A stretch of 64,000 nucleotides of DNA from Eutreptiella sp. 'Long Island Sound 2002'. Lineage: Eukaryota > Euglenozoa > Euglenophyceae > Eutreptiales > Eutreptiaceae. The notes under the pieces were generated by a model. It searched no databases, had not been told where the DNA came from, and saw only the letters and a list, made by a program, of their open reading frames with translations. Shown one piece after another: positions 18,835 through 42,537 of this stretch (position 1 is its first letter; each line of letters opens with the position of its first letter). The stretch is from positions 125,867,708 to 125,931,707 of the forward strand of contig OZ038381.1 of assembly GCA_964036045.1 (NCBI GenBank), given 5' to 3'. Both the position numbers and the translations under genes were made by a program.

Positions 18835-18966
18835 TTGCCGCTTGCGATATTCTGCACTGGTAAGTACTGAGGCTGGAAGTTTCGTTCAGACAGCTGGTGA
18901 ATTGGGATCAGCGGATGCAGTTTTTCTGTACTTGCCCAGGTCCCTGCATTAGAAAATTTCTGAAAT

Positions 18967-18993: not shown

Positions 18994-18994
18994 A

Positions 18995-21936
18995 GCCTTT
19001 TCCTTGGCCTTTGCCTTGGCCTTTTCCCCCGTCTCCGCCCTTCGCCTTGCAATCGGAAATCCGCTGCTCCTTGGGCTTCTTCTCTGGGTGGGCGGCGAAG
19101 TAGGCCTTCTTGTCCGCCTCATACACCTTGCACTGACGGTGGTCGTGTGCATGGTCGTTTCCCTTGCCATAACAGACCCAGCACCCGTCGTGCTGCGACC
19201 TGTACTCCCGGAAAAAGAGCGGTGGGTTCCCGATCCTCCTTGGCGCGTTGCCCTTCTTGGGTCCCACCCGGCCCCATCTGGACCGATCCGGCCCATGATC
19301 CCTCGCGTTGTGCGCCACAAACGCGGAGAAATGGGCCTCCTCGTGATCCTCCCGGGTCCAGTGGTCCTGGCCACTTCCACTACCATCCTCCGCAGAGTTG
19401 GCCGTGTCCTCCTGGATCTCCCGATGATGGCGGTCTTCTCGCTGGCCTCGTTGTCCATGACCATGTCGATCCTGCACGTGGGCCTCGTTCTTCGCATTGA
19501 GCCTCAGCTCCACCGTGATGTACTTCACGATCTCGTCAAGGCTCATGCGGGCGAAGATGACCTGCATCCTCAGCGGCTCCCCGCGCCTCCACTCCACGTT
19601 GTTGAGGCGCAGCAACCTTTGCCCCATGGAGTCTCCAAATACCTCCACGTACACGGCGTTCTTCAGTCCCAACATCCGGTTGGGCTCGCCCAGGTTCCTC
19701 CTGAAGAACTCCATGATACCCGCATGGGTATCCTCCGCCGCAATGATCCTCACCGCCACCCGCTTCTTGGCCCGCTTCTTCTCCTCGTCCTCCACTCTCC
19801 TCTTCCAGTTGCCGGGGAGGACGTCCTTCAGCAAGTGGCGGATCTCACTGGCCTCGTTCCAGTCCTCCACCAGCTTGAGGCATCTGCGGTACTTCCGCAG
19901 ATACCGGTTCCACTCCCGGACCCGCAACTCACCGCGGTCCAGCGGCAGCGGGATGGACCACAAGTCCTCCAGCTTCTGGTTCGGAGCGTCCACCCGCTCC
20001 TCATCCTCCAACCACTGGAGGCAGGCCTGCTCCGTACGGATCAGTCCTTCCCGGATCTGATCCCGCAGCTCCTCCTTCAGGTCCTGCGCCAGCCGGTGTG
20101 GGAATATCCGACATACCCACTTGTCCCGCGGCGCTCCCCGCATCTCACCGACGACCTCCTCGGCGAAGTCCTCCCAATCCAGGATGAAGTCATCCAGGTT
20201 GGAGGGATTGCCATCGTAGTAGGGGATTTTGATTCCCCTGAGGTCGTCAATCCTGATGGCGTCTCCGACGTCCCCAGCCACCACTCCACCGAGGCGGATA
20301 CCACCTGTGGCCGGAGGGTGTGAGTAGACTCCCCGTACATCCCTCTCCTCCATGGAGTGAGGTCCAGTTGGGCCTGAACCCATGGGGTTTGGAATGCGGG
20401 AAGGACTTGCTCTGTCGGCCGTCCATATCCCCGTATTGGGGTCCTTCGCCCACAGGTTTCCGCCTCGATGGCCTCGACCATGTCCGTCAGCGCTTCCCAT
20501 GCTTCGCCCCTGCATGGTCTGGTTCTGGATCTGGATCTCCTCTTCCGTATAGACTACCATGTTCGTCGTGACCGGTAGATCCTGGGCGGCATGGGACATC
20601 TGTACCGTCAGGCTCCTCGGGTCCGTGGTTACGTGCCCTTCCCGCATGGACCCAGCCGGTGCCGTGTGTTCCCCGAGCATTGTGGACTCGCCGAACATGG
20701 GAACAAACGGCAGCGCGCCCGGGTCAACACGCGGGGGCGCGTAGGGTGCCTCTGCAGGGCCGCCCATGGGTTTATCCATGGCGCTCCTGAGGGTCTTAAC
20801 CCGCTCCACCAGCTCTGCTGCGGCCGGCTCTGCCGGGAGCTCCGGACCCGAGGCGAGGGCTGTAGCTCCTCTAGCCTTTCCAGGCGTCCCGACATGTCCT
20901 CCACCAGGTGGAGGAGGCTGTCCACCACTCGCTGCTGCTTCTCCAGGGCCAGCTCCAGATTCTCCCGGTACCGGTCCCGTTCCGCTCGCAGCTCCTCCAT
21001 GTCTTTCTCCGCGGCCGACTGGTCATCCAGGATCCCGGCGACGTCCTCCTCTAGACCGTCCTTCGCGTTGTCCAGGCGGTGTAGGAGGTGCACGATGGCG
21101 TCCATCCCCATCTTTGGGTACTTGCCCATGAGGAAGGACACGTGCTCGCAGTGGCACTCAGCCTGCTTTCTGCCTGATCTGGCGCATCCCGCGGTTCCCG
21201 GCACCTCAGACTCGTCGCCCATGGGCGTATCGCCTATGGCGTCCGTCTCTGGTCCCGTGTGCCGGAGCACAGGTGCCGTCTGGGCCCTGGCTGGCCTCTC
21301 CAAGCCCTCGGCGTCGTGCTTCAGGGCGGGCTCGGGGGCCGTATGCGCCCTGGCGATCAGCGCGGACAACTCCGACTCCGAAGGTGGCTCGTAGGCTGTC
21401 TGATAGCCCTCGGAGTGCCCCTCGTATTCCCACAGCCTGAGCAGGCTGGGGTCCGTGTCCATAGCCCCGGCGTCCCTTGCCGCGGACTTGGGTGACCCGC
21501 GCTTCCGGTAGCGCCGGGCCCGTCCTCCACTGCTGCCTGAATGGCAGGCCTCCTCAGAGTCCTCCGCGGCGGAGCGGAGGTTGCATGCCTTTCGGCAGCG
21601 ACGCTCACACATGGAGGCCAGATCCTCCATGTCAAGTCCTCCTCTTCCCGAATGTCGTACTTCTCTTCGGGCTTCACCTTCCGGAGTTCGCCATACTCTT
21701 GAACGTCTTGGCTCTTCTATGGCTCCAATCTCCGGCGTGGTCTCCACCGAGTCCACAATACGCACCCGGGGCGTACTTGGGCAGGGCTCATAAGGGCCCA
21801 AGTCCCCGAGTCGGCGGTAGGTAGGGGCAGCAGGTACGCCTCTGCTACCATAAAGAAGGTCCCTACCAGGACCGGCCCCCGCTGTGCCCCTTCCGCCTGT
21901 AATCCCTGCTGACTTGCTCCGGATCAATGCTTGCAT
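18995..21936 (-). pseudogene. gag: Gypsy-1 gag, main part, one frameshift
   Basis: ATG at 21936 starts MQALIRSKSAG. The first 300 residues hold a cysteine cluster (CERRCRKACN), a possible C2-type motif (ECHCEHV) and a coiled coil (EEDVAGILDDQSAAEKD to LEEL). A frameshift near 20850 leads to the capsid-like region (IKIPYYDGNPSNLDDF, then a Trp-rich helical domain) and a zinc knuckle C-X2-C-X8-H-X4-C (CWVCYGKGN..., about 19130-19182). A Lys/Gly/Gln tail is then cut by the SL retrocopy at 18995. Gag forms the particle and packages the RNA. Confidence 0.8.
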
Positions 21937-22615
21937 TCCTCAAATTCCAGGGTCCAATCCAAAAATATAGAAAATAAAATCCTCCTTCAACCCTGAACAG
22001 CAACCAGATCCCACAAATACAGCAAAAACCCGATCCACAATCCAATACACACTGCGGGCTTCCGTTCAGCACACCGGTCGTCTCACGGTGGCGGGCATGT
22101 ACAAGAATTGCACCAAGGAAGAAAGCCCTGAAATTGGCATATGAACACAAATAAAGCAAAGTTGGGGAAAGAGGTAAACATACACATTCACAGCCATAAG
22201 CCCCTCATTCCCTGGACTCAAGACCTTCCCTTGACTCACCAACATGTTGCCCTGAACTAGGTCAAATGAGATGGCTGAATGCCATGTGTCACAAGTCACT
22301 ACACATACCCCAAAAATGTGTTCACTCCCAAGCCTCTAAATCCTAGCCCAATGGGGGAGGTGGCATGTCATGGCCTAGAGTGGCACTCAGGACCATGCCC
22401 TACCCTGACATAACCTTGGTTGGACTTGGAGTCGATTGGGCTTGGAGAACTGCCCCATGATGTTGACCTCACAACACGGCAAAATCAGGCAAATCACACC
22501 ATTATGCCCAAAATTCAATTATATACTCAAAAATGCATACGGCAAATATTCAAATGCTCCATGCATATGTCAAACCGGAAAGTAGTATACAAGGGTGATA
22601 TAGACCGAAGATTCA
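21937..22615 (-). other. Gypsy-1 5' leader
   Basis: Region between the 5' LTR and gag. The first bases after the LTR on the minus strand are TGAATCTTCGG, which do not match the usual TGG-type tRNA primer site that I would expect. The primer is therefore unclear. No gene is supported. Confidence 0.5.
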
Positions 22616-24207
22616 TGCCCAAGAATATTTCATCATTGGCTCTGAAAGCCCTCCGTTTATATACATGACATGCTTCACAAGTCAGCTCATGAGTTTGAGA
22701 CCTAATTTTGTGAGGCCTCGTGTGCCGAGCCAAAGTGACCACGTGATCAGGCATATGGTGAGGTACAACACCGAAGCATATGGCAACAGATAAGCAACAT
22801 ACCATAGTTCCTGGATCTCTAGGCACATTACTGTTAGCCGACCAGTTGAGCACATAAAACACAAAAATGTGCATAAATTGAGGTCAAAAACATGAAAATA
22901 TGTCCACATACAAAGTTGTTATGATATTATATCTCTATGCTCACCCATGATATCCGCTCATGGTTCAATACACAAATGATTGGAACCACTTACAAACAAT
23001 TCCCCCACTTGGATCCCCAATCGAGCGCATGGAGATACCTTCGCCACCCATATCTACATGCCCCATGAAAATGGGAGTGCACTCATGGATCTCTTTGCCA
23101 AACATACCATGAGCAATACATACGCGGTAGACTTAGTCTAGCGCTTTGAATTCCACAATTGGAACATGGGCAAGGCCCTTGTCACGTGTGGCTCCCCATG
23201 TCTTCGGCCACACAAAGATATATAACATGGGCGTGAGCATATCGAAGCACATACCATGCATATAACACATACCCTCAAAAAGTGGCTGCCACCATGGTAT
23301 GCCATGTCCCTCCGTGGACATAACTTCACGTTACAAATACGTAGGAACCCAAAGAAAAGTTGCTATGCAACCCCTACACTCATGCGGTACACTCGAAAGT
23401 CGCAACAAAATATTCGGTTGCACGGACCAAGAGTTATATATCACTTTCTACCCCTTGGCCATTATCTCTTGATACACCGGGCATGTGTACACACCAAAAA
23501 GGGGTTTCATGCTCCCTAAATTAAGTTGAGACCAAGGCGCTTGCAACGCAACCTTCCTTCCTCTCTTTCCTCACACTCGCGCGTAGATATGGCTCTTCAA
23601 AGTGGTCCCACGATTCACTTTTGTTTCCCTTATATCTCCAAGTCCAATGGGTGGCAAGTGCAAGGGAAACCTGGTTCGGGCATAGGGAAAAGAGTCTGAC
23701 CACTCGAAGAAGACCAAATCAAGTGCGGCGATGTCGAAGTCGAAAATCCGATTTCGACATCGCGAAAAATTCAGAATAAAATTTCGAGTGCATATTTAGA
23801 AAATTGCGGAAGCAACGAACCCTTTACTGATGAAATCCGACCCTTCATCAGAGTTTCCGCCAAAATATCTGGAAATAACAGTTAACCAAACGGTTACCGC
23901 AAAATCGCGAGCCAACTGACAGTCGCCGATACATTGACCATCAGAACAGAAGGCTGAAAAATTACGGAAACCTTATGATAATAAAACCCTGTTGATTCCT
24001 GATATTCCGATATATAAATCTCCGCTGGCGGTGCCTCGGTACTGAATATGGCCGCTCGTAGCCGGAATGGCCAAACCTATCACACTATCACATCGGCTTA
24101 GCTCAGGTGGATGGGAGAGTATGATATCAGCCAATGGCGGCTTGTCGGCACATATATACACACCCCAAGTAACCCAAAGATGGCGACGGGGGTCTGAACC
24201 GGCTTCA
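22616..24207 (-). repeat. Gypsy-1 5' LTR
   Basis: 1592 bp, a near copy of 9488-11057. On the minus strand it runs TGAAGCCGG to CTTGGGCA. It should carry the promoter for the gypsy-1 transcript, although no element can be placed by eye. Confidence 0.92.
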
Positions 24208-24809
24208 GCTCACGCTGCTGTCTCCGCTCGCTGCCGCTCCCGCCTCTAGCTGCCCTCGTCCGCCCTTGCCTTCCTCCTGCCTCCGCACCTCCAGGAGGAT
24301 GGACTTCATGGCAGCCGCCGGCACATGGGGCGCCGACGGCTGTCCTGGGCCTCCCTCCACCGCCATCCAGCCCGCCCCTTCCCCCTTATCCTCCGACACC
24401 TCGAGGATGTCGGCGATTACTGACTCCTTCCTCCTCACATCCACGCCCGCCCTCAAATCCACCACATTGAACGGGTCCGCCCCTGCCCCTCCCCCTGCCC
24501 TTCTGCCCCTGCCGCCACCCTCTCTGCCCCGCCCTTCCCCGCCTCTGCCTGTCCTCCCTTTTCCTTCCCCTCTCCCTTCCCAACCACGGCTCCTTCCCCC
24601 CTTTGTCGCCCTGTAGCCCCCGGCCCTTCCTCCCTGACCGTCTCCGGGCTCTCCGGAGACGAGGGCGACGACACCCCTGCAGACGTCGCCGAGGACGCCA
24701 GCGAGGGAGGCCGCGGGGCTGCGCCCACCTGCATGCGGGCCACTGCTGCCCGCACCGTCAGCGGCTGGCTGGGCTGTGGGTCAGGCATTTGTGACATTGC
24801 GCTGCACAT
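24208..24809 (-). pseudogene. LINE-A ORF fragment upstream of the gypsy-1 insertion
   Basis: Minus-strand open frames here read PQPSQPLTVRAAVARM and, in another frame, KESVIADILEVSED and AAAMKSILLEVRRQEE. The purine-rich codon use continues that of the LINE-A ORFs. Presumably it is the N-terminal part of the 3' ORF whose VKWAG end lies beyond gypsy-1 at 7701-9487. No domain is recognised and the frames are broken. Confidence 0.35.
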
Positions 24810-24899
24810 GGGATCACGCTTGAGCCCTGCGCCCTGTCGCCGTTTCCCCCCACCTCCCCCGCCCGTTATCCCCGCTGTTCGCGCGCCCCACGTGTGGGG

Positions 24900-25280
24900 T
24901 GCTCTGTCATATTGTCCCTGTTGCCTCGGACGCTCCAGTCCGTGGCACTGGGTTCACCCCCGGACGGTTCAGTCCTGGGGCTAATGCCGTGCTTCTTTCT
25001 GCCCCGGATGCTCCAACCCAGGGCGCCTTTTTTTTCTTGTATTCTCTCAGTTGCCTCGGACGCTCCAGTCCGTGGCACCGGGCTCGGCCAGGGGCTAGCG
25101 CCGTGCTTCATTCCTCCCCGGATGCTCCCATCCGGGGCGTCATTTTGTCGCACTCTCCTTGCCGCAGTCTGCACTGTCGCCGTCCTCGTCCCCGCTTCAC
25201 TTTCCCCGCTTCTTGCTCTGCCCTACGACTCTGTGTGCCCAGTCCCGGACGCTCCAGTCCATGCTACGGGCGCTTCCGCT
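24900..25280 (-). repeat. 127-bp repeat, second cluster (2-3 units)
   Basis: CGGACGCTCCAGTCCGTGGCA and its companion CCCGGATGCTCCAA recur here as in the large array at 37370-39010. Two units are nearly complete and a third is partial near 25240. The cluster lies just after the RNase H ORF, so the same repeat family occupies two separate places in LINE-A. Confidence 0.85.
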
Positions 25281-27710
25281 GTCCCTTTCCCTCCGGTCCC
25301 CTTCCCGACGTCCCCCTCTCCGTGATTTTTGGGTTGTACCTGATCAACACCATCCCCACCCGCTTGGTGACTGGATCACGCATGTCTTCCGCCCGCGCCT
25401 CCAACTGCGTCTCTCTGCACGCCATGCGTTCCTGGAGATGTTCCACCATACGCCGCATGAGCCTGTGCGCCATGGCCTCCGGTGCCACTGTATGCTCCTG
25501 GAGCGCGCACCACAGCGGTTTCACTATCACCATGTGCCATAGTCCTTTGCGGTGCCCTTCTTTCCCCAGCTCTCTCTCCACCGCGCTTCTGCCTCTCGCA
25601 CCCTTCTTGAGTAACGGGACGTCCCATCCCGAACCAGTGGTTCCTCGATCCCCTTATACTGTGCACACCGCATGAAGTGTTCGTATGTTTCTTGCCCTCG
25701 GCCACAGTGGCATCTCATGTACTCATCCAGGAGGTCCATACCCTTATGTCTGTACCACCTCATGATCGTTTCACGCACCGGCACCTGCCCCGTGATCGCC
25801 TGCAGCCTTCTGGTTTGCAGCCTTTTCGGCAGCAAATCCGGCCTCAGCACATTGGGGTAGTGGACCCGCTGTCCCACCCTGCCCTCCAAGTACTCGTTCA
25901 GCTCTACCACCTCCGGCCCCCCTCGTACTTGGGCTAGCATGTGCACCGGCTGTGGATACACCCTTAGTTCCTGCTTGTCTCTGTCCTCCTCCACCACCGA
26001 ACTGGCCTTCTCCTCTTCCCCGACCCTTGGAGGTATATGCACCAAGTGGAGGTGCCCCTTGCTCTCTGGCGGACTTCCACTCTGGTTCCTGCTCCTTATC
26101 CACCGCTTGCGCCGCCCCATCCGCCTGATGATTCCCCACTCCCGCCCTGTGTGACTCCTGTTTCACCAGGTGTATGACCAGGGGCACTTTCTTCATCTCC
26201 AGCCCGTGCCATATTGCGTACACCTGTGACGACAGTCCCCCGCCCAGGGCCTCATGCAGTGGCCTGCTGGCCAGTCTCCCCAGGGACGCCCTGTCCGCCT
26301 CTGCGTCCACCACCATCCACACTTCCCGTACGTCCTCCCCTATCTCCCCAACCACGTCCGCCACCGCCTGCACCTCTCCATGGGACGCTGCTCCGTACAC
26401 CATCTTTTCCCCACACTCTGCGTCACCTGTCCCACCCCCTTGACCCTTACCGCCGCTGCCCCCGCCATGGGCGGCTGTCCTTCCACCCCGGACCCGTCCA
26501 GAAATAGCACCACCCTCTCCCTCGTGGGCTCCCGTATGCGCACCACCTCCCTCGGGTAGTGGCAGTACACTTTGTGCTTCTCAATGCCATACTCTCGTAC
26601 CCCATCCCTGATGCTTAGCTCTCTTACCCCTCTGTACACCGCCCACTTATTGTCCGTCCTGGCCTTCCATCCCTTCGTCACCACCACTCCGTGGCACCAT
26701 GCCCTGTCCCCTTTCGCCCTGCCCTGGTCTAGGTATGCCTGTACCAGAACCTGGTACCATACCCTGTCTGCTGGCAACCCGTGGACCGTCAGCCTGATCC
26801 TCCTCGCACTCCCTGCACACTTGTGGCTCACGGGCACTATGGGCGCCTCCTCGTCGGGCCTCCCCGTGTCCGTCATCCGGAAACTCACCGCCACCCCATC
26901 ATCCTCTTCTTGTAGTCCCCGCACTGTGTCCCATCCAAACTGGACCCCTGTTCTTCTCCTCTCCTCTTCCTCTCCCCACCAGACCTCCACGTCCCCCTGG
27001 GCCTCCTCATCCTCCCGCACCTCCTTGGGCAGCCGCAGCACCAGCCCCCACCACTGCTCCCTGGCGTCCGTAGTGCGCATGGTCACGTTCGGGAACGCCA
27101 ACGCCGTCATTCGTAGGACTGGCCACGGGATTTGCCCTGCCTCCTTGGTGCACCTCCAGCACTGGTCCCCCTGTCCTGCCTCTTCCGGGATGTTGTCTTT
27201 CCGGAACATATCTGCATGGACATCATACCACTGCCCGGCCGCACTCTGTACCTTCCCCCTCGGTCCTTTGAGTCCCAGCGGCGCACAGAACAGTATGCCC
27301 GGTCTGGCCTTGTCCCTCTCCCCCCTGTCCAGCACCAGTCTCTCTTGCTGCGCCCCCTCTCCTCTCCCGCCTCTTGGCTTCCTCTGCCGGATCCCCCACA
27401 GCGTCACCCACTCGTTCCACATCGCGCGCATCCTCCTGCTTCAGCTTGCGTGGTCCTCCCGTCCTCTTGCTCTCCTCATCATCCTCCTGTATACACCCCA
27501 TTCCACCACCATGGTGTCCCGATAGAACTCCGCATGGTGCAGCCCCGCCTTCTTGTATTCCTTCATATCCTTCCTGCGCACGTGCAGCACCTCCATGTTC
27601 ACTTCTTCCTTCCTGATCCAACGCACCGTCCCATGTGCCGCCCCCCCGAAGTCCGTGTCCAGGACCAGGATTGGTCCCCGCCTACCGCACGTCCTGTTGG
27701 TTGCCAGCAT
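25281..27710 (-). pseudogene. LINE-A RNase H and zinc-knuckle ORF, broken
   Basis: ATG at 27710 follows the endonuclease-RT stop by 3 bases (TAACACATG). After an in-frame TGA (27441-27443) comes a linker with QCWRCTKEAG, then RNase H. The catalytic residues are Asp in VVLFLDGSG (about 26498), Glu in HGEVQAVAD, Asp in VVDAEAD and Asp in GNHQADG, so the D-E-D-D set is complete although a frameshift near 26400 splits it. After another shift near 26090 come helices and the zinc knuckle CHCGRGQETYEHFMRC (C-X1-C-X8-H-X3-C, 25665-25712), then a last frame with APEAMAHRLMRRMVEH. RNase H removes template RNA during reverse transcription. LINE-B has the same parts. Confidence 0.85.
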
Positions 27711-27713
27711 GTG

Positions 27714-30674
27714 TTATTCCCCCGGCAACACTGCCTGTAGGGCGCGCCACATGCGCTCCTTCTTCCCCGCCGCCAACCGCCTGCGCCGGTGCCACACATA
27801 GCGCGGGCACATGTTCTCTTCCTTCTGAACCTCTGCGACCGCGTGATAGCACACCCGTCTCAGCACCTCTTCCTGATTGTGGCACATCCTGCTCCGCGTC
27901 CTCGCCGTGTGTGCCCTGTACGCCTCCCCCGCCGTGGGCATCCCTTCTCCATAGTAGGCCGTCGACGACCGCAACACGCACCACAGCACCTCTGTGGGTA
28001 TCCCGTCATACCCTCTGATGAGCCTCCGCACTTCTCCCTCCACCTCCTCCAGCTGATCCCTCCAGTACGGGAGGTGCATCCCCTGGTACCCTACCGCCCC
28101 ATTGAGCACCGCCCGCAGGTAGTACAGGGTCGCCTGCACTGACGGGGGGTGATGCCGCAGGACCACCAGCTTCGCCCTGAACTCCCTGACTAACTTGTCA
28201 GGTAGCCTGACCCCCCTCGCCTCCATGGCCTGCACATGTCCCAGCACCACCGCTTCCTCTGCCCTCTCCAGCCATGCCAGTCCGTCTCCTACATCAAGCG
28301 CCATGCCTTCCTCTCCACCCCTCCTCAGAACCGCCGACTTCTCCGCGCTGCAGACAAGGTGGTTATCCCTCCCGTACCTCTGCATCAGGTCCTGTACCAC
28401 CTGTTGGGCCTTTTCATCCCGCGCCATGGGTACCGCATCATCCACATATGCCTGCGCCGGCAACGTGTGTGGCGCCCGCGCCAGTTGTGGATATTCCCGC
28501 GCTATCCAACTCATCAGGGGGAGCATGGCCAGCAAGTACAGGAACGGGCCCTCCACCCCGCCTTGTGGCATCCCGCTGCCTGGGGTTACCCACTCGGTAC
28601 ACCCCTTCCCCCTGGTGACCGTGTACCTCCTTGAGCGCAGGTACTTTTCCACGAAGTCACCATATGGGAGTCCTAGCTGTCGCCACACCTCCTCTATGAG
28701 CCTACGCGGCGTGTTGGGAAACGCCCTCTTCACGTCCACAGACGCCATGAACGCCTCTAGGTCCTCATCATCGAGGTACATATTGTACAGGAAGCTTGCT
28801 TCCTGTGTGGACCTACCCAGCACTGACCCCCACATATTGTCCAGTATGACCCCCGCTGCATACAGCTGCTGCTGTATCCTCCCGAAGATCGCCATCAAGA
28901 CCAGCTTGGCCTCTGTGACGGCACGGCATATTGGTCTCCAGCTCCCCGGCCTGAGGTGATCCCCCCTCTTGTACAGGGGCCGCACTATGCCCCCCCATTC
29001 CTTTGGGGGCTCGCCTGCCCGCAACACCTCCGTGACCCTCCCCGCTAGACCATCCAGCTCCGGCGTCTCCAGGTGCTGGTACGCCTCCGCCACCAGCTGG
29101 TCCACTCCCGGGCTCTTTTTCCCCTGGAGAGCTTTCACTGCCTCTTTAATTTCCCCTAGCGTCACCCTGCTGCGGTGTATATCCTCGCTCTGCTCCGCTG
29201 TGAACACCCGCGGTAACACCCTTACCATTCTCCTTGTGATCCTGCTTAGCTCCTGCTGCCTCTGGTTGTGCTGCCTCCTGAAACTCTGCGCCACCTCCTC
29301 CAGCACTTCCTTTTTGTTTCCAGTGACCCTGCCAGACTGCTGTCTCACCGCCCTGATTTCCTTTGGTTTTCCAGCCTCAGCGAGCTCTCTGATGTACCGT
29401 AGCGACTTGTACGGCACCGCCCTTTCCATGTATCTCTCATGCTCCGCCACCACCTTCTGGTATATCCTCTCGTGTTCCTCCACCACAGCCCTCCTCGCTG
29501 TTCGCACCCTCTTCTTCGCCTGTGTCACCTCCGTTTGCCACTCCGTCCCCTCTTCTCGCGCCCGTGCCTCGACCTCCTCTTGCTGCTGTTTCCTCAGTGT
29601 GGCCAGAAGCCTTTGCAGCTTGGGCTGTGCCTGCGACTCCCCCACTTGCTTGGTAACCCCGCATATCCGCGCTGCCCTCCTCATGGCTTGATGTACTTGT
29701 TTCCCCTGCCTCATTTCGGCGTGTACCCGCTGCCCCCACTGTTGCCACCTCTCGTCCCCCTCCTCCGGCCACTTCACCATTGGCAGCAGGCTGACGCCTT
29801 CCTCGTCCGACCCCTGCTCATCCTCCTGTTCGTCCCCGGGCTCCCCCACCTTCACGTCCACAGTCACCATCATGGGGCAATGCCCCTTCCTGTCCTGCAT
29901 TTCTTCCGGCCCCACCATGTATCCCGCCGTCACCCCCTTGACCCAGCTGGGGTCCGCGTACACCGCGTCTATCCGCGATGGCGCGCTGCCTTCTGGTGCC
30001 GGGTAGCGTGAGGGGCCTGGCGCTCTACTGTACGACACGTCCTGCAGCCTCATTTCCTCCACAAACTTCCGCACCTCGCGGTCCACCTCCGTCTCTGCGC
30101 CCCTCCTCCGGGGATCGTAGTTGAAGTCTCCAACTACGATGACTGGCCCCCTCTCCAGCGCCCTGACGTACTCCATCCTCAGCTGCGCCACATACTCCTT
30201 GACCCTCTTCCCATGTGGGACATGGCAGTTGATGATGACTACCTGGCCATGCTCCGTCGCCACATCATACACCACCCTTCGTCCCCTCGCTCCCACCTTC
30301 TTGTCCTGCACAACGCTGAGCCCTCTGGGCACCAACAGCGGCACCCCCTGCGTCCACTCCCGCTGGTACTCTCTTCCCTCCTTGCCGTACATCTGCGCGC
30401 ACACTACGTTGTCCTTCCCCTTCAACCTTATCTCCTGGTACGCCACCACATCGGGGTCCGCCTCATGCAGCTTCATCTGCTGCCACGCTGCCTTGTCCGC
30501 CCGATACAGTGCCGCGGGGTCATTGTGGGTGTACAACTTCATGCGTTGCCACCTGCCCTCCCCATCCACTCGTAGATCCCCCTTGTCCGTCGTGCCTTTG
30601 TCCTCCCCTTTGTTCCTTCCCCCCTGTCTTTGTCTGGCTTCTTTCCTCTTCTTCCCGGCCGCCCCCCGCTCCAT
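27714..30674 (-). CDS. LINE-A endonuclease-reverse transcriptase, 986 aa
   Basis: An uninterrupted ORF starting ATG at 30674, 6 bases after the previous stop. Residues 45-275 are an AP-like endonuclease: Glu81 (VAYQEIRLKG), Asp183 (VVGDFNYDP), Asp236 (SRIDAVYADP) and His265 (KGHCPMMV). Residues 280-480 are charged and likely helical. Residues 505-780 are the RT: KSPGVDQLVAEAY, SWRPICRAVTEAKLV, Asp647 (SVDVKRAFPN), SGMPQGGVEGP and the active site YVDD at 743-746. The thumb and a basic C-terminus follow. It would nick target DNA and prime cDNA synthesis. Domain order and the separate downstream RNase H and knuckle recall ingi/I-type LINEs. The intact 986 codons imply recent activity. Confidence 0.93.
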   Translation of the reverse strand: MERGAAGKKRKEARQRQGGRNKGEDKGTTDKGDLRVDGEGRWQRMKLYTHNDPAALYRADKAAWQQMKLHEADPDVVAYQEIRLKGKDNVVCAQMYGKEGREYQREWTQGVPLLVPRGLSVVQDKKVGARGRRVVYDVATEHGQVVIINCHVPHGKRVKEYVAQLRMEYVRALERGPVIVVGDFNYDPRRRGAETEVDREVRKFVEEMRLQDVSYSRAPGPSRYPAPEGSAPSRIDAVYADPSWVKGVTAGYMVGPEEMQDRKGHCPMMVTVDVKVGEPGDEQEDEQGSDEEGVSLLPMVKWPEEGDERWQQWGQRVHAEMRQGKQVHQAMRRAARICGVTKQVGESQAQPKLQRLLATLRKQQQEEVEARAREEGTEWQTEVTQAKKRVRTARRAVVEEHERIYQKVVAEHERYMERAVPYKSLRYIRELAEAGKPKEIRAVRQQSGRVTGNKKEVLEEVAQSFRRQHNQRQQELSRITRRMVRVLPRVFTAEQSEDIHRSRVTLGEIKEAVKALQGKKSPGVDQLVAEAYQHLETPELDGLAGRVTEVLRAGEPPKEWGGIVRPLYKRGDHLRPGSWRPICRAVTEAKLVLMAIFGRIQQQLYAAGVILDNMWGSVLGRSTQEASFLYNMYLDDEDLEAFMASVDVKRAFPNTPRRLIEEVWRQLGLPYGDFVEKYLRSRRYTVTRGKGCTEWVTPGSGMPQGGVEGPFLYLLAMLPLMSWIAREYPQLARAPHTLPAQAYVDDAVPMARDEKAQQVVQDLMQRYGRDNHLVCSAEKSAVLRRGGEEGMALDVGDGLAWLERAEEAVVLGHVQAMEARGVRLPDKLVREFRAKLVVLRHHPPSVQATLYYLRAVLNGAVGYQGMHLPYWRDQLEEVEGEVRRLIRGYDGIPTEVLWCVLRSSTAYYGEGMPTAGEAYRAHTARTRSRMCHNQEEVLRRVCYHAVAEVQKEENMCPRYVWHRRRRLAAGKKERMWRALQAVLPGE

Positions 30675-30680
30675 TAATTG

Positions 30681-33600
30681 TCACTTCATCTTCTTGTTCT
30701 TCCCCCCCGCCGACACCTCTTCTCCTTCCAATTCTCTCGCCTCCTGCTCCGGAACCAGCTGCCCGTGTATTTCCATCTCCCTACCTTGCGGGCATACCTG
30801 CAACCTTTCCACCGCGTACGGCAGTCTCTCCTCATCCCCCTCCCCCTGCTCCTCCCACTGCACGATGGCTGCCCTCGTCACATGTCCCTTGCGATCTTGT
30901 TGTTCGATCATCTCCTCCACTGTTCCCACATACCTCCTCCACTTCCCACTCACTTTGTGCGGACCATACACTGTCATCCCTTCCCGCACCGTCCCCTGCT
31001 CTTCACAGCCCCGCTGCTCCTCCCTGTACCTGACTCCCCTCGCCCGTTTCCTTCTTGGCGTCCCTTCCCCTTCCCCCTCCTGCTGCTGCTCTGCTTGCAG
31101 ATCCTGCTCGTCCGCCTCTCTCCCCCGCTTGCCGCCCTCCCTCTCACTTCCCTCTCTTGTCCCCTCCTCCTTGCTCCCCCCCTCCACCCTGTCTCCAACA
31201 GCACTCTCCTGCCCTCCTCCTCCCACTTCTCCCTCTTCCACCCTTTCTTCTCCCTCCTCTCTGTCTTCCCGCCCGCCCGCTGCCAGTCCCGGCTTCCGGC
31301 CTTCCTCTCCCCGCGCTTGGTCCTGCCCCCTTTCGTCTCGTTCCTCCTCACCATCTCCATTCCCCACTTTGAACCGCATTTGTCCCCCTCTCCCCCTCCG
31401 CATCCCCCTCCACCTACTTGCCCCCCCCCCCCCCTGATCGTCTTCCACCTCCAGGCCCGGCTTCCTGGCCTCCTCCGTGAGCCTTCTCGCTCTCTCCAAT
31501 GCCTCTTTCCTGTGCCCATCCTCCGTTCCGGGTGCCACGATCCACCTCGGCCGCTCCCCTCCCCCGCTGCTGGCCACCCACTCCAATGCCAACCGAATCT
31601 GTTCCCTGGGTTCTTCCGCTTCTTCCGCCTCCGCACACCTATCCATTTGCGACTCCAACGCCCATAGGACGGCCATCTCTCGTACCTTCCCCTTTCTTTC
31701 AATTGTCACCTCTTCCATCTCCCCGACCCACTGCATGAGCGGGTGCTCCACCCTTTTCAACGGCGCCGCCGTATACACCACCGCTTGGCGCCTACCCCCC
31801 CTTGGTTCCACGACCCACCGCGTGTATCTGTCCTGCACCAGGTCCGTGACCCCTTGGTCTGCAGCCCCCGTGGTATTCGCCTGTGGTGACACTACTTGTA
31901 TTGTGTGCCCTTTGACACTCCTCCCCGCCACCTCGTCATAGTCAACCATGGTCATAACCTTGCGCATCCGGTGCATTTCTGTGTCTGGGTCCCACTCTCC
32001 GGCCATGCCTCTGCTGCGCCGCACTGTCTCCCCAACGTACAGCGCCATGGCCAAGACCTGCCTCGTGGGCCCCCACACCTCTACTGTTCTGCTCGTGCTG
32101 TCCCCACACGCCGCTACCTGCGCATCCCGCTGCATCTGCATCCACAGCACCGCCTGTTTTGGCTCTACCTTCTTTGCCGTCAGGATCTGCGCCTTTGCTT
32201 GCCTCTCGACCCCTTCCTCCTCGTCCCCCACTGTTCCGCTCCGACCATCAGCATATCCCACCCACATGTGCTTGACTTGGTGGAAGTACACCAGCGGCGC
32301 CCCTTCCCCTTCCCCCATCTGCAGCCACATAGGCCCCTGTCTCCTGGGCTGCCTTACTCTGATCCGATGGTATCCTCCCTTGGGCTCCTGTGGTCCGTCC
32401 AGCCTGCAAAGGCACCTGGCCTGCGTACACTCTGGCCTGCACTTGTCCTCCCCCGCCTCAGCTCTGGCCTTCAGGTGGTACCTAGCCTTGCTCACCATCT
32501 GCCGTACCTCTTCACCCCTACATCCTTTGATGCGGTCTTCCAGCCCTGGCTGCACCTCTCCATTCTCTATCAAGACATTCTGACCTGCCTTCGCCTTGCC
32601 CCTCAGCCTCTGCGCCCACTTCTGCAGCATGTCCTTCCTGTCCCTGCCGTCCCCCAGCATGTCCAACCCTTCCGTCGCCGCCTCCTTCTGGCGCTTCTCC
32701 TTTTCTTTCTCCGCTCTGTCCAGCTCAGCAGTGTCCGCCCCAGCCGCCTTTCCCCTCCCCACCTGGCCCTCGGGATGCAGCGGCTCCCTCCACGCGGGAT
32801 CCGCCATCCATTGGATTGCCGGCTGCCCCTCCCAGTGTCCCATGGTGTACACCTGTACCGCCTGTCCCTCCCGGCCGAGTCCAATCCGGACCTCCATACC
32901 CGCCGCCGCTGCTGTGGTGACCACCACGTTTGGGATCAGCACATCGTACTGGTACCTGGCCCCATGTCCGTGGCGTACCTCGACTTCCACCATCCCCCTG
33001 CTTCCCACCCTGTCATCCGGGAGGATGATGTGGACTGCCTGTCCCCTCGACTGTGCCGCCGCCCGCCCCTTCGTCGCCACAGGGAATATCGCCTTTGTGT
33101 CCTCCCGTGTCATCCATTCTCCCCTGCGGAACCTCGCACGCCGAATGACCCCCACTGCCCACTTCTCGTGCTCCACTTCTCCCGCTTCCCGCACCCATTC
33201 TTCTGCCACCCTGGCAAGGGCTGATATCTCTGCACCCTGCCTCTCACACTCCGGCAGTGGCGCTATACTCTCCATGCCGTCGTCCCCCGGGAATGCGTAT
33301 TGCCACGTGTCCCCCGTGTGTGGGTGCACATGGTACGTGCGGTTGGCCATGCACGCCGTCCCTTCATCCAGCAACATTTTGATGGCCTCGGCCGCCTTCA
33401 GCATCATCTCCTCTCCGAACGTATACACCAACCCCTGCCCTCTGTGTCCCTGTGTCGTGCGTGCCGCGGTCAATGCCGCCCTAGTGAACTGTGCGCGCAC
33501 GCTACTCGCCTCCTGTCCTCCTCTAGGCAGCTCTCCTCCCCACTCATTCCTGACTGGGACCCCCTCCCCCTGGTCCGCTCGCCACGTCATATGCTGACCC

Positions 33601-34014
33601 CACCACCGGCGTCCCTCCGCCGCCACTCTGTACCTCCCCTTCCATCCCGGCTCCAGCCACACCGCCCTGTCCGGCCGTATCTGGACCGCTCTCTCTGCCC
33701 CCCACCCGGTCCTCACATCCTCCCTGTGCTGCAGCTGCAACACCGCCTCCCCTCCCCCTGTGACCCACACGTCCACCCCCCGTGCCTGCCTCCTGTGCCA
33801 CTCGCCTTTCCCCGTACCCTCTGGCACTTGCATATACTCCATCTCCTGTACTTGCACTCCTAGCACCCCTTCCAATCCCGCCCGTAGTTTTCTGTCTCGC
33901 GCTGTACCCCCTCCCACTCCCCCCCTCTCCCTCCCGGGGCCCTCCTGTCCCTGGTACCTCCACCTTTCCCCCCCCCCCCTTCTGCTGTCCTTCTTCTGCC
34001 AACACCTCCTCCAT
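30681..34014 (-). CDS. LINE-A large ORF of unknown function (about 1100 codons)
   Basis: The likely start is ATG at 34014, where the junction TGACAATGG couples it to the upstream OTU ORF stop. The first 30 codons (MEEVLAEEGQQKGG) are joined to the 1078-codon body by a shift at a run of seven G near 33923-33929. The body has a folded-looking N-terminal two thirds (for example YTFGEEMMLKAAEAIKM and MVEVEVRHGHGARYQYD), a cysteine cluster CRPECTQARCLCRLDG that may bind metal, and a long acidic/basic low-complexity region. A short Trp-containing end follows (VYGPHKVSGKWRRYVG, SH3- or chromo-like at most). Its place before the endonuclease-RT suggests a nucleocapsid or particle protein. No family is recognised. 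Confidence 0.7.
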
Positions 34015-34016
34015 TG

Positions 34017-35796
34017 TCACTTCTGCGTGCCTTCCGATACTGTCCCTTCTTCTGTGTCCGCCCCCGCCACTGCCTCCGCGTCTTCTTCCCCCGGGGGACA
34101 CAGCAGCTCGTAGTGTCCCCCTCCTTGTCTGCTCCACAGCAGCGCTGCTGCCGTTCGCTTTCGTCCTCCCACTTCTGCCATCTTCCGATACACCCCCTGC
34201 GGTCCCCACTCCTGGTACATTGCCACTCTGCATCCCTTGCTCTGCGCCCACCTCCAAACTTCACATGCCCCTCCCCATATCTCTCCTCTGTGCACTTTGT
34301 CCAGGTACTGATCCCACGTGCGCGCTCCCGCGTCCCTCATGACTCTCCGCGCCCAGCCTGACTCTGGGGGCCGCGCCATCTCCGCCTCCGCGCACCTCTT
34401 CTGCTGCTGCCCGCCCCCCGCTCTGTCCACCGTGCTGAGTGCCCAATACAGGCACTTGCCATCCCCTGGTATGACCTGTCGCCTCGCCCCCCCCAGCATT
34501 TCTTCCGGCCATCCCTGCCCCCCTTGTGCGCTGTCCAGCACTCTTTGCACCGCCGCCGCCACGTCTGCCCCGTCACTCCTTCGTCCTCTGACACCCCACA
34601 GAACCGCATAGGTTCTTCGCTTGGTCCACAGGATTCCCGCATCCAGCGGAGTTCCTTCCCCATACTCCACCAAATTTCTGTATCCGTTTCCGCTTTTTGT
34701 CTCCCTGTAGACCGCCACCTTGTACCCCCCCTCCACTGCCCATGCCTCAACCTCCGGTGGCCGGCCCATCCTCCTCCCCTGCCTAGTCCGCTGTATGTAC
34801 CTCTGCCACGATACTTCCTCCTGTGGCAGGCACTCCTCCATTTCTCCCATATTGTGTCTACCCTCCACCCTGGTAGCCACTCCTTGCCTTATCCGCTGTA
34901 CCTCTTCCTCACTGTTCAGTCTGCCCTCCAGCGCACACAACACCTCCCACAATGTGTTGACATCCTTCCCGTACATGTGCTTTACAAGCACCCCTTCCTC
35001 TGCTCTCTCCCTCGCCCCCTCCAATGCACCCTCCCGCCTCTTCCACGCCCATGCCGCCTTGCGTTGCTGTTCCTCTTCGTTCCCCGCCGCACTCCCCACA
35101 GTCCCCGTTCTACACGTCGACGGCCGACTCTCGCCTGACGCAACACAGTGTCCTCGTTCGCCTCCCATGCCCACCCTAACCTGTGCCCCCCCGCCCGTGC
35201 CTGCTCTTCCCGCCTCTCCTGTTGTACTGCCTTCCCCTGTCTCCTCGTGCTTGCACACCACCTCATACACCCTCGTCTTCCTCCACAGGATTCCTGCCGT
35301 CATCCCCTTTCTCCCCTCCATACTCCTGTATCTTCCTGTAGCCCTCTCCATCCTTCGTCTCCCGGTACACTTTCACTCTGTATCCATTCTTCGCAGCCCA
35401 CGCCTCAACCTCCGGCGGTCCTCCCATCATTCTCCCTTGCACCAGCTTCCGTACGTACTCCTTCCATCCCGTCTCCCCCTGCGGCAGGGGCTCCTGCATC
35501 ACCCCTGTCTGTAACCTCTCCTCGACTGCAGCGACTACCCTTGCTCGTACTTCCTTCGCTTCCTCATTTGTGCCTTGGCCTCCTTCGATAACACTCATAG
35601 CTCTCCACAAGGAGTCCACTCCGTCACCCTCCATACCCTGTGTCACCACTCCCGCATGGATTCGGTCCTGTTCCCCTTCGAACGTTCTTTCACTCCCGGT
35701 CCATGTGCATGCTGCTCTTCTCTTTCGTGTCTCACCCCTCGCGCTCTCCATTGACTCCCGGCTCCTTTTGCTGGCCTCCTCTTCGGTCGCGTACAT
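34017..35796 (-). pseudogene. LINE-A ORF with three OTU-like domains, last one with catalytic residues
   Basis: ATG at 35796 (MYATEEEASKRS). OTU-like domain 1 reads GDGVDSLWRAMSVI and ends VYEVVC. A frameshift near 35290-35310 (AAAGGGGATG) leads to domain 2 (GKDVNTLWEVLCAL, ending TYAVLW) and domain 3 (PGDGKCLYWALSTV, IWGGACEVWRWA, GGHYELLC). In the second frame (numbered from 35351) the third domain has nucleophile Cys300 and His413 in the spacing of OTU cysteine proteases. In domains 1 and 2 the Cys is Ser or Thr and the His is Val or Thr, so they look like inactive copies. All three share PPEVEAWA or similar before the second half. OTU enzymes cleave ubiquitin or polyproteins; OTU domains are known in some LINEs. 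The role here may be protein processing or escape from host ubiquitin control. Confidence 0.8.
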
Positions 35797-36339
35797 TGTG
35801 TGTCTCCTGTGTACACAGTGTATGCCTCTCCTCCACAGCCCCTCTTGGCTACCTTCCTCGTCCCTTCCACCCTCCCCTCTTGCACACCTCGCTTCAGGCG
35901 TAAAGGCATCCCCGGTGTCCGGGGGTGTTTGCGTTCTTCAATGGCCCCTCCAGGGCCTCAAGCACGTTCTACCGCCCCAACCCAAGCACGACGCTTGTCG
36001 TCAAGTGTGTCCTTCGAGCGCCCTTTCTGTACTGGCCGCTGGTACTCCCCGGCTGAATCCTTTCCCCACTGCTTCGCCTCCCTTCCTTTCGCCCCCTCTT
36101 TGTTGTCCCCTGGGTCTCCCCCTCTATGTCTTGGCACCCCTGTGTGCTGCCCCTCTCCCTCCCCCCCTCCCTCCTTCAATTCCCCCTGCCGTAGCCCCTT
36201 CCCGGCCCCTGCGTTCGCCTTTTCCTCCTGCCGTCGCCGCCTCCTCCCCTTGATGCTGCTCCGCAAGCTCCATACCTTCTCTTGGCGTTCCTGCCTCATG
36301 CTTCTGTCCTGGATGTGTGTGTTTTCCCCGTTGTCCCGG
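35797..36339 (-). other. LINE-A leader between arrays and OTU ORF
   Basis: Purine-rich on the minus strand with short open frames (one of about 160 codons overlapping the array). No domain is recognised. It may hold the 5' untranslated region of the OTU ORF. Confidence 0.4.
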
Positions 36340-36930
36340 CCCTGCTCCTCCTGGGCGGTGTTCTGGGCCGCCGGTGAGCAAGCTCTGTGTGTGGTGTTGC
36401 GTGTACGGTGTCCCGGGCCTCCTGGCTCCTGTTCACCGCCGTGCACGCCCTGTGTGCGGTGTTGCGTGCACGGCTTCCTGGCTCCTGCTCACCGGCGTGC
36501 ACGCTCTGTGTGTGGTGTTGCGGGTGCGGTGTCCTGTGCCGTTTGGTTCCTGTTCACCGGCGTGTACGCTCTCCGTGTGTTGTTGCATGTGCGTTGTCCT
36601 GAGCCGCCTGGCTCCTGTTCACCGGTGTGCCTGTCTGTGTTCTGTATTCTGTGTTTGGGTGTAAGAGCAGTTGTCACAGTTGCCCCGCATTGCATCGCAG
36701 GACAGGACCGGTAGCCCCCCGTGACAACCACTCCCTGGCCGAAGGCTACTGGATTTTTACAGTCTACTGCCTAGCCTATGGTTTCCTCTGCCTCGGTGCC
36801 CTGTGTCGTGTGCACCGTGGGCCCCTTGGCTCCCGTTCACCGGTGTGCACGCGTTGTGTGTGGTGCTGTATGTGAGGCGTCCTGGGCCTCCTGGCTCCTG
36901 TTCACCGGTGCGCGTGCTCACTGTGTGCTC
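36340..36930 (-). repeat. 65-bp repeat array in LINE-A
   Basis: On the minus strand units contain CACCGGTGAACAGGAGCC and CACCGCACACGCAACAC, the same as the large array in LINE-C (53085-54740) and in the same direction relative to the LINE sense strand. About five units lie at 36340-36640 and two more at 36800-36930. The gap is occupied by the inverted-repeat element at 36660-36752. Confidence 0.85.
36660..36752 (-). repeat. Short inverted-repeat (MITE-like) element, copy 2
   Basis: Near-identical in reverse orientation to 1507-1608. The core ends are GTTGTCAC (36670-36677) and GTGACAAC (36721-36728). It interrupts the 65-bp array. Confidence 0.55.
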
Positions 36931-37369
36931 CTCGCATGCTTCCTATCCCCCTCCCTCATCCTCGCCTGTTCTTGTGCATGCTCTCCGTGACTGCCCTCCT
37001 GCTTTTTCCTGTCGCCGTCTTCTTGTCCTCGTGGTGCCCCTGGCGTTCGCATTCGAGTCTCCGTCTGTGTTAGTCTGCTCTTTCGGCCTCCCCTTCTCCT
37101 CTTTCCCCTGGCTCGTGTCCTCCTTGTCCACCCTCCCCGGCTCTCCTTGCTCTTGCCTCCCCTTTCCGGCATTGTGTCCCCTCCGCTCTGGTCCTTCCGG
37201 TCCGGGCTCCATGTGCCCATCCGCCTCCCCGTGTTCTCGTTCTCCCCTCTTGCTCTTTCTCCTCCCGCTTCGCGTCTTCTCTCCTTCTTGTCCTCCCCCT
37301 TCTGTTCCTTGCTCTTGTTCTTGTTCTCCTCTCTGTGTCGCTCTGCCGCCGTCTCCTTCTCCTTGTTTG
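36931..37369 (-). other. LINE-A leader, pyrimidine-rich on the plus strand
   Basis: No repeat unit or coding motif seen. It connects the 127-bp array to the 65-bp array. Confidence 0.4.
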
Positions 37370-39010
37370 CTACCCCGGACCTTCCATTCCCGGGCCGCTT
37401 CGTCCCCGGTCGTCCCAGTCCGGGCGCATTGCTACCCCGGGTGTTCCAGTTCGCTGCACCGGGAGCACCCCCGGACTTTTTGCCGTATTCCCTCTGCTGC
37501 CCCGGATGCTCCAGTCCATGGCACCGGGTTCACCCCCGGACGATCCAGTCCGGGGGCTCGGGCCGCGCTTCATTCCGCCCCGGATGCTCCAATCCGCGGC
37601 GTCTTTTTGTCTTATTCTTTCCGTTGCCTCGGACGCTCCTTTCCATGGCAGCGGGTTCTCCCCTGGACGATTCAGTCCGGGGGCTACTGCCTTGCTTCCT
37701 TCCGTCTCGGATGCTCCATTCCGGAGCGCAGTTTAATCGTATTCTCTCCTTTGCCTTGGACGCTCCAGTCTGTAGTACTGGGTTCTCCCCTGGACGATCC
37801 AGTCCGGGGGCCCAGGCTGTGCTCCACTCTGCCCCGGATGCTCCGCTCCTGGGCGTCTTTTTTTCCTATTCTCTCCGTTGCCTCGGACGCTCCAGTCCGT
37901 GGCGCCGGGTTCACCCCCGGACGATCGAGTCCGGGGGCTTGTGCCGTGCATCTTTCCGCCCCGGATGCTCCCTTCCGGGCCGTCTTTTTATCGTATTCTC
38001 TCTGTTGCCTCGGACGCTCCAGTCCGTGGCATCGGGTTCACCGCCGGACAGTCCAGTCCGGGGGCTATTGCCGTGCTCCATGCCGCCCCTGATGCTCCAA
38101 TCTGGGGCTTCTTTTTATCCTATTCTCTCCGTTGCCCCGGACGCTCCAGTCCGTGACACCGTGCTTCATACCGCCCTGGGTGCCCCAATTCTGGCCGTCT
38201 TCTTATCGTATTCCCTCCGTTGCCTCGGACGCTCCAGTCTGGGGCACTGGGTTCACCCCCGGATGATCCAGTCCGGGGGCTGGCGCCGTGCTTCTTTCCG
38301 CCCCGGATGCTCCAACCAGGCCGTCGTTTTATCGTATTCTCTCCGTTGCCTCGGACGCTCCAGTCCGGGTCGTCTTTTCATCGTATTCTCTCTGTTGCCC
38401 CGGACGCTCCAGTCCGTGGCACCGGGTTCACCTCGGACGATCCAGTCCGGGGGCTAGCGCCGCGCCTCATTCCGCCCCGGATGCTCCAATCATGGGCGTT
38501 GTTTTGTCATATTCCCTCCGCTGCCCCGGACGCTCCAGTCCGTGGCACCGAGTTCACCCCCCGACAATCCAGTCCTGGGGCTAGTGCCGTGCTTCTTCCT
38601 GCCCCGGCGGATCCAACCCGGGGCGTCTTTTTCTCGTATTCTCTCCGTTGCCTCGGACGCTCCAGTCCTCGGCACCGGGTTCACCCCCGGACGATCCAGT
38701 CCGGGGGCTTGCGCCTTGCTTCATTCCTCCCTGGTTGCTCCAATCCGGGGGGTCTTTTTGTCGTCCTCTCTCCGCCGCCTCGGACGCTCCAGTCAGTGGC
38801 GCCGGGTTCACCCCCGGACGATCCAGTCCGGGGGTTAATGCTGTGCTTCATTCCGCCCCAGCAGCTCCATTCCGGGGCGCCCTTTTGTCGTATTCTCTCT
38901 GTTGCCTCGGACGCTCCAGTCCGTGGCACCGGGTTCACCCCCGGAAGATCCAGTCTGGGGGCTCGGGCCGTGCTCCCACTTGCCCCGGATGCTCCAATCC
39001 GGGGCGTCAT
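37370..39010 (-). repeat. 127-bp tandem array with hairpin units, about 12 units
   Basis: The start of each unit (CGGACGCTCCAGTCCG) recurs at about 37630, 37757, 37884, 38011 and 38138, then at some shorter spacings to 38907, giving a 127-bp period. Each unit has three related hairpins: CGGACgctccaGTCCG, CCCGGACgatccaGTCCGGG and CCCGGATgctccaATCCGGG, so it is itself built from a shorter ancestral motif. Its place near the LINE 5' end recalls promoter monomers in mouse L1, but here it is transcribed downstream of the spliced leader. Confidence 0.9.
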
Positions 39011-39472
39011 GTTTCTTTCTCTCCTTGCTGACTTCGGTGTTTGCGTGCGCGGTGCTTCGGTGTTTTGTTTGCCTATTCTTTTTTTTTCGCGCGCCCATCG
39101 TCGTTGCTCCTCCCTCGCTCTCCACGCTCCGCTTTGCTTTCCCCGCCGCTTCCCCTCCCTCTCCGCCCCCGGTCCTCTCTTCCCCTGCTCCCTTTCCCTC
39201 CCTTTGTGGTGGCTTTGCTGGGGCACGCACTCAAGCTCCTAGTGTCTACGCGCGCATGTTGCTATGTTTTGGGGCGGGCACACACTTTCATTCTTCTTCT
39301 CCCTTTCCTGCCTTTGTTCTTGTGCATTGTTCCTCCGTTCGTCCCGTCCCTTGTCGCATGCACTTTGTGTTGCCTTTGCCTACCTCTTGTCCTCTCCTCT
39401 TTTGTTTGTTTGGGGCACGCACACAAGCTCCTACTCCTACGCCTGCAATTTGCCACCATTCTCATCTTCCAT
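39011..39472 (-). other. LINE-A leader with an internal duplication
   Basis: GGGGCACGCACTCAAGCTCCTA (39218 region) and GGGGCACGCACACAAGCTCCTA (39412 region) mark two related segments about 193 bp apart. No gene is supported. Confidence 0.45.
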
Positions 39473-39790
39473 TCAATCATTCGTTTTGCACTCTTGCCGC
39501 ACGCCTTTGAGACACAGAGGGAGCGAAATGTCATTTCCGGCGTTGCTACAGCGTCCATTTGGGTGACCCTGAGGGCCTAGCGGAGGACTGGAACACGCAC
39601 GAACAACATTCAGGTAGTCTCTGCTACCATGTAAGTGGTGTCCCGGCTGAATGAACGTGCCAGAGGGCTCAGGGCCACCTAGGCCAGGGGTGCAGGCTTG
39701 CAGGGATGCAACCTGGATGTTTGTTCCGGTGACCAACAGGACCCCATGGGAGGAGAGGGCAGCAAGAACACTAGACAAGTCCATGCTCAT
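39473..39790 (-). CDS. First ORF of LINE-A, 105 codons, unknown
   Basis: The first ATG after the spliced leader is at 39790, only 23 nt downstream of the leader, and starts MSMDLSSVLAALSS. The frame runs 105 codons to 39473. The N-terminal 30 residues are hydrophobic (VLLVTGTNIQVASLQA). The rest is Gly/Pro/Cys-containing without a known motif. Being leader-proximal it is the ORF best placed for normal cap-dependent translation. It could also be a captured cellular exon that supplies the trans-splice acceptor. Composition is balanced, unlike the purine-rich ORFs further down. Confidence 0.4.
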   Translation of the reverse strand: MSMDLSSVLAALSSHGVLLVTGTNIQVASLQACTPGLGGPEPSGTFIQPGHHLHGSRDYLNVVRACSSPPLGPQGHPNGRCSNAGNDISLPLCLKGVRQECKTND

Positions 39791-39813
39791 GGGACCCAGA
39801 GAAAAATCCCAGT

Positions 39814-39840
39814 CGAAAAAAATAGACACTCAGAAAGTGT
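39814..39840 (-). other. Spliced-leader sequence at the 5' end of LINE-A
   Basis: The minus strand reads ACACTTTCTGAGTGTCTA, then seven T and CG (one T fewer than at 18967-18993). The right copy of the 13-bp LINE-A target duplication starts at the next base. The LINE transcript was therefore trans-spliced before it was copied into this site, and the copy is full-length to the cap-proximal bases. Confidence 0.85.
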
Positions 39841-39853
39841 CCTTCCCTCCAAG
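39841..39853. repeat. LINE-A target-site duplication, right copy
   Basis: CCTTCCCTCCAAG, identical to 4256-4268. Confidence 0.8.
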
Positions 39854-42535: not shown

Positions 42536-42537
42536 TA

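Follow-up and report, generated by a model that had tools for sequence, protein, structure and literature searches.

Structure of the locus

The window (the whole 64,000-nucleotide stretch of DNA that was analysed) contains at 4269-39840, on the minus strand and in sense order, a spliced leader (SL), a repeat here called X that has the anatomy of an LTR-element leader, and a LINE, here LINE-A, with a Gypsy element nested in it; 13-bp repeats flank the stretch (Table 1). The span measures 35,572 bases, or 20,852 once the Gypsy at 9488-24207 is removed, and the roughly 300 bases that follow the SL are X rather than LINE-A.

Table 1. Features of the SL-X-LINE-A stretch, its flanks and the elements within it.
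Feature	Position	Strand	Basis
Target-site duplication, 5'-side copy, CCTTCCCTCCAAG	39841..39853	.	exact 13-base match to 4256-4268
SL, first bases of the insertion	39814..39840	-	sequence; core-versus-shuffle test; published SL (PMC6242988)
X, first part: 3' part of LTR (U5-like), end CACTTACA, starting at presumed trans-splice joint	39630..39813	-	39 database relatives
Primer-binding-site-like TGGTAGCAGAG	39619..39629	-	sequence; 18/39 relatives continue across
X, last part: LTR-element leader	39512..39618	-	8/40 relative alignments end exactly at 39512
X/LINE-A junction, position uncertain within ~39497-39527	39509..39511	-	slight overlap between the relatives of the two sides
LINE-A, 5' part: 127-bp and 65-bp repeats in the untranslated region; ORFs; reverse transcriptase	24208..39508	-	composition, repeats, ORFs
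LINE-A ORF, 444 aa, weak OTU-protease similarity	34017..35351	-	Pfam OTU E 0.1, below cut-off
LINE-A ORF, 1078 aa, without Pfam match at E 0.01	30681..33917	-	Pfam
LINE-A ORF, 986 aa: endonuclease (PF03372) and reverse transcriptase (PF00078)	27714..30674	-	Pfam
Chromodomain Ty3/Gypsy nested in LINE-A	9488..24207	-	LTRs, integrase ORF
Separate SL-tagged mRNA retrocopy in Gypsy gag region	16715..18994	-	SL and 18-bp duplication
LINE-A, 3' part, ending in (CTTA/CTTG)n tail	4269..9487	-	composition, tail
Target-site duplication, 3'-side copy	4256..4268	.	exact match to 39841-39853

Judged from its sequence matches, LINE-A is a high-copy family: among the 7994 candidates scored, the 986-aa ORF gave 33 database matches, 30 of them at 70-91% identity, and the best matching cluster had 352 members. 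Eleven stretches in viral_contigs were considered as reverse-transcriptase relatives and none was confirmed. The 444-aa ORF bears a weak resemblance to OTU-type cysteine proteases; against PDB chains it matched one named Replicase (E 0.0015) and OTU1 (E 0.011). About 12 copies of the 127-bp repeat lie in the 5' region (37476-39008), and the repeat occurs again downstream of the reverse transcriptase (24905-25165).

The two LTRs of the nested Gypsy (9488-11057 and 22616-24207) are 94.5% alike, and its integrase ORF carries the chromodomain. Its 5-base flanks, GTCCA and GCTCA, form no clean duplication; with the element removed, one frame is open across the join of 9487 to 24208.

Spliced leader and limits of the insertion

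Read on the minus strand from 39840 to 39814, the sequence is ACACTTTCTGAGTGTCTATTTTTTTCG, a Euglena-type SL of 27 bases, which points to a euglenid. Compared with the E. gracilis SL given in PMC6242988, ACTTTCTGAGTGTCTATTTTTTTTCG, it has an extra AC in front and one T fewer (7 Ts against 8). Searching the window with the 21-base SL core at up to 3 mismatches returned two matches, this copy and one at 18970-18990, against a mean of 0.00 over 100 shuffles. A C precedes the published first base A in both copies (ACAC.. at 39837-39840, TCAC.. at 18990-18994), and the SL here may be 1-2 bases longer than the published form. The SL pattern had no match in viral_contigs or genome_contigs, both of which may omit the window's own genome; an Rfam scan of the window at gathering thresholds gave no matches, and ARAGORN found nothing in it.

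The second SL belongs to the retrocopy within the Gypsy. Its SL lies at 18967-18993 with eight Ts, it has a short A tail, and its 394-aa ORF (17650-18834) has no Pfam match at E 0.01. It is bounded by a perfect 18-bp duplication, GCCTTTTCCTTGGCCTTT, at 16697-16714 and 18995-19012, for which the expectation is 5e-7. This retrocopy independently shows that SL RNAs are copied to their end in this genome.

The first-pass annotation had reported that the SL at 39814-39840 adjoins a 13-bp direct repeat, and this was borne out: the exact partner lies beside the LINE tail, with the tail-like (CTTA/CTTG)n repeat at 4269-4284 directly adjoining it. This repeat takes the place of a poly(A), which is absent from the 3' end of the insertion. 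Counting the ambiguous base 39840 would lengthen the duplication to 14 bases. An order-2 Markov model predicts 0.008 such 13-mers in 4000-39840, or 0.013 across the window as a whole, and exact matches at least as long were found for 22 of 10,000 control starts, from which shared repeats had not been removed. The repeat could have arisen by chance at a level of 0.2-0.8%, which is unlikely but not overwhelmingly so. A near match at 25878-25890 (1 mismatch) was set aside as a partner; on a minus-strand reading it would fall in coding sequence and lack a tail.

Joining 4268 to 39854 leaves 65 codons open on the minus strand. An ORF near this joint matches the hAT dimerisation domain at E 0.00046, just below the Pfam cut-off, while Pfam on the joined hAT-like stretch gave no families; the joined flank is a weakly supported candidate for the empty site.

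One target-site duplication thus encloses the whole SL-X-LINE-A stretch, with the SL at its first base. This supports two parts of the earlier claim, that the copied RNA bore a trans-spliced leader and that the cDNA reached the RNA 5' end. A third part found no confirmation, namely that the SL marks the 5' end of LINE-A itself: LINE-A stops at about 39508, with some 300 bases of another repeat in between.

Two placements of the SL as something other than cargo of this insertion were rejected. SL-X might be a separate retrocopy inserted beside or into LINE-A, and the copy at 16715-18994 shows that such retrocopies do occur in the window. We nevertheless hold this very unlikely. SL-X has no duplication of its own, such as the first-pass annotation had named as evidence to the contrary: in 39300-39560 the longest match to the right flank is 5 bases. 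Nor does LINE-A resume to the right of 39840: the 15 relatives of its 5' end described below give no tblastn match above 39553 at E 1e-4, and in 39841-40300 only matches of 7-24 residues at E 0.17 or worse. The repeat at 39841, moreover, has its partner next to 4269, where the LINE tail lies. The other placement would make the SL flanking target. SLACS, CZAR and CRE in kinetoplastids target SL RNA genes, so LINEs of this habit do exist; here, however, the duplication encloses the SL, which runs into X the way a leader does in a mature mRNA, and the flank adjoins the ORF with the weak hAT match and shows no SL RNA gene. We give this placement almost no credence.

The repeat behind the spliced leader

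The ORF running from the SL to 39473 has 39 database relatives besides itself; the window's own ORF (P0034) forms a single-member cluster. All relatives of X and of the LINE-A 5' end are translated ORFs, so that copies without a called ORF are not visible, and the protein search that found them favours close relatives. Counts of acceptor sides, LTR ends, the sequence Y introduced below and SL signatures rest on custom regular expressions. By base composition, both GC and AT skew flip sign between the intervals 39001-39500 and 39501-40000.

Although the window copy joins the SL to X in genomic DNA, an SL-coded peptide is present in none of the 39 other relatives of X. At the joint 29 of them carry other sequence, with the residues before it resembling the consensus MYLCSSALIFYIDWDFS, and P0059, P0071 and P0072 share sequence much further upstream. 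Ten relatives were scored without an acceptor side. Of these, P0036, P0050, P0051, P0054 and P0061 start only behind the joint, where an ORF is unable to show acceptor-side sequence, and P0042 starts right at it; upstream sequence is in fact present in P0058 and P0067, without an SL by eye, and P0064 and P0066 differ at the acceptor side. The codons before the joint are compatible with ...TAG followed by ACTGGG across the joint, behind a pyrimidine-rich tract, as for a trans-splice acceptor. Finding the SL joined to ACTGGGATTTTTC in RNA would indicate that X is trans-spliced at this predicted acceptor.

Further into X, the LTR-like CA end CACTTACA is directly followed by TGGTAGCAGAG, which we take to be the complement of the tRNA-iMet 3' end and which resembles a primer site. 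After CACTTACA (39630) the relatives divide: 18 of 39 continue across TGGTAGCAGAG, 16 do not, and 5 fit neither class; in 12 of the 16 that do not continue, the next residue is H or Q, the residues encoded by CA+N that a CA end requires. The 40 tblastn alignments of the 39 relatives break at corresponding places, 11 ending at 39620-39632 and 8 exactly at 39512. Some relatives are flanked by Gypsy genes (P0064, P0067). We read X as an LTR family because copies from 5' LTRs would lead into primer site and leader, and those from 3' or solo LTRs into flanking sequence. By its anatomy X looks like the 5' leader of an LTR retrotransposon, seen apart from full LTR ends and adjacent gag-pol. The combined X and primer-site pattern had no match in viral_contigs.

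Upstream end of LINE-A

The end of LINE-A at about 39508 is set by database relatives. Fifteen relatives belong to the ORF that spans the join on the plus strand (39032-39580). Ten of them follow LINE-A to about 39508 and have a further sequence in common beyond it, Y (one frame reads, for example, RHRGERRGELATCIPAYGVR; in P0075 only six residues of it are present). In 4 of the 5 copies read in that frame, Y can be followed for 27 residues (81 bases) beyond the join. Five relatives are without Y: P0080 reaches 39503 and then differs from it, and the alignments of P0082, P0083, P0086 and P0087 stop at 39286-39458 or earlier. Comparison of these relatives thus places X, in the window copy, where most readable relatives have Y.

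X and LINE-A lie in the same orientation and have different sets of relatives. LINE-A 5' relatives gave no convincing match to X (the best had E 0.028 and 31% identity and did not lie at the join); conversely, none of the 39 X relatives carries the LINE-A side by motif, and none matched LINE-A 38900-39511 convincingly by tblastn (best E 0.027). The join itself is not sharp. Three LINE-A relatives, P0076, P0077 and P0078, cross it and, beyond a 6-residue gap, still align as far as 39527 (RHRG being common with X), P0074 aligns to 39553, and from the other side two X relatives, P0037 and P0048, extend with poor matches to 39506 and 39497. Such overlap may be a short sequence common to X and LINE-A that aided a switch, or chance, or the join may lie some bases away; for this reason we state it as about 39508 and not to the base. 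It may also be a splice joint.

An SL signature is found in none of the 15 relatives (translated ORFs), and the SL as the regular 5' end of the LINE-A family was rejected, ten of the 15 ORFs running into Y. The first-pass annotation had supposed that the leader forms the start of LINE-A RNA itself and that a promoterless, trans-spliced transcript is what the family depends on; neither idea found support. Copies that start elsewhere or are without the leader, which it had named as evidence to the contrary, largely turned up among these translated ORFs, which are not full-length copies: ten pass 39508 into non-SL sequence, P0080 differs, and four stop or diverge earlier. A tempting claim, that the copies of a whole LINE family open with a host leader, finds no support here and would fall away on the reading proposed below.

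Proposed origin

On balance we think it probable that this copy is a chimeric LINE insertion, a one-off hybrid of LINE-A and a trans-spliced LTR-element RNA, whose SL is best read as the tag of that second RNA and not as a LINE-A start. The transcript of an LTR retrotransposon would have been trans-spliced at an acceptor inside its own LTR. Target-primed reverse transcription would have set out from the tail of the LINE-A RNA; at around 39508 the enzyme would have switched to the SL-tagged RNA, or the two RNAs would have been joined beforehand. The last 300-odd bases of the SL-tagged RNA would then have been copied to its 5' end, and joining of the cDNA to the target would have given the duplication. 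We propose template switching, or prior joining of the RNAs, as the simplest account; among the 39 and 15 relatives (translated ORFs) no second SL-X-LINE-A chimera serves as an example. A copy that starts with the SL has left behind the LTR promoter and the splice acceptor, and so could be expressed only from outside.

The main rival is promoter borrowing, or 5' transduction, in which an LTR reads through into a LINE-A that is truncated at about 39508 and lies in or behind the LTR-element leader, and the resulting single RNA is trans-spliced at the LTR acceptor and retrotransposed. X stands in sense orientation with primer site and leader, as an LTR-initiated RNA would have them; a switch between RNAs is not required, and passages of PMC13174262 describe LINE-1 both as carrying out 5' transduction and as borrowing promoters. 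This course nonetheless requires two events, and its parent, an LTR leader already joined to LINE-A, was not found among the 39 and 15 relatives (translated ORFs, with the join blurred by some bases): no X relative enters LINE-A, and no LINE-A relative convincingly matches X. We regard it as unlikely, while giving it more weight than the readings that follow.

A standing lineage is more doubtful still. LINE-A might include a lineage whose normal transcript is SL-X, the LTR leader having been acquired as its 5' UTR, and which moves as a trans-spliced mRNA. The window copy fits this, and its main LINE-A ORFs are long and open; against it, the X/LINE-A join is absent from the 39 and 15 relatives, and the P0034 cluster has a single member, and we consider such a lineage improbable. 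Equally doubtful in our view is that an LTR with a working trans-splice acceptor lent LINE-A its promoter and SL and so founded a mobile SL-LTR-LINE lineage. If true, this would be a LINE moving as a capped, trans-spliced mRNA and needing a new acceptor at each site.

If the chimeric reading holds, the join keeps an RNA 5' end in DNA and points to trans-splicing of LTR-element transcripts in a euglenid-type genome, where the LINE machinery would copy RNAs to the 5' end and be able to fuse two of them. SL remnants would then offer a simple genome-wide marker for counting retrocopies and chimeras.

Comparison with known systems

LINE chimeras formed by template switching or RNA joining are described in passages of PMC2104539 and PMC13174262. 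The WEIRD-MGL 'MINE' elements of Magnaporthe and the mammalian U6/LINE-1 and mRNA/LINE-1 chimeras likewise have a different RNA in sense order 5' of the LINE within one duplication (PMC2104539; PMC13174262). Here, in contrast, the 5' partner is an LTR-element RNA with a trans-spliced leader in a euglenid-type genome, the LINE part is about 20.5 kb, and no hotspot or recurrence was seen among the relatives.

Dinoflagellate SL-tagged retrogenes (DinoSL relicts) also start, as genomic copies, with the host SL, a mature mRNA having been copied, according to passages of PMC12014239. Organism and SL differ, and the SL here sits on a transposon chimera instead of a host gene; the retrocopy at 16715-18994 is a closer match to these relicts than SL-X-LINE-A is. 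That an LTR-element transcript can gain an SL is known from Cer1, a Ty3/Gypsy element of C. elegans that acquires SL1. There the SL is seen in RNA and on spliced mRNA only, whereas here it is deduced from a genomic copy; the precedent is limited to spliced forms, since the unspliced 8-kb Cer1 message is given as untagged in the parts of PMC3315495 that concern it. L1Tc of Trypanosoma cruzi is, like LINE-A, a LINE in a euglenozoan with trans-splicing, but passages of PMC4748587 describe it as having an internal promoter (Pr77) and unspliced transcripts.

A literature search combining spliced leader, retrotransposon and template switching found nothing. Among titles, the starts of abstracts and some passages, in a body of literature with subscription journals mostly outside its coverage, no description of a LINE starting with an SL was recognised.

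Other repeats in the window

The 65-bp repeat of the LINE-A 5' region recurs in inverted orientation at 53064-54746. Direct repeats of about 0.5-0.65 kb, 94-95% alike, occur at 42061-43191, 50812-51463 and 55322-55865, around LINE-like sequence. Their order fits one insertion in which about 1.1 kb of target was duplicated, followed by another with a duplication of about 65 bp; each has tail-like CTAC repeats.
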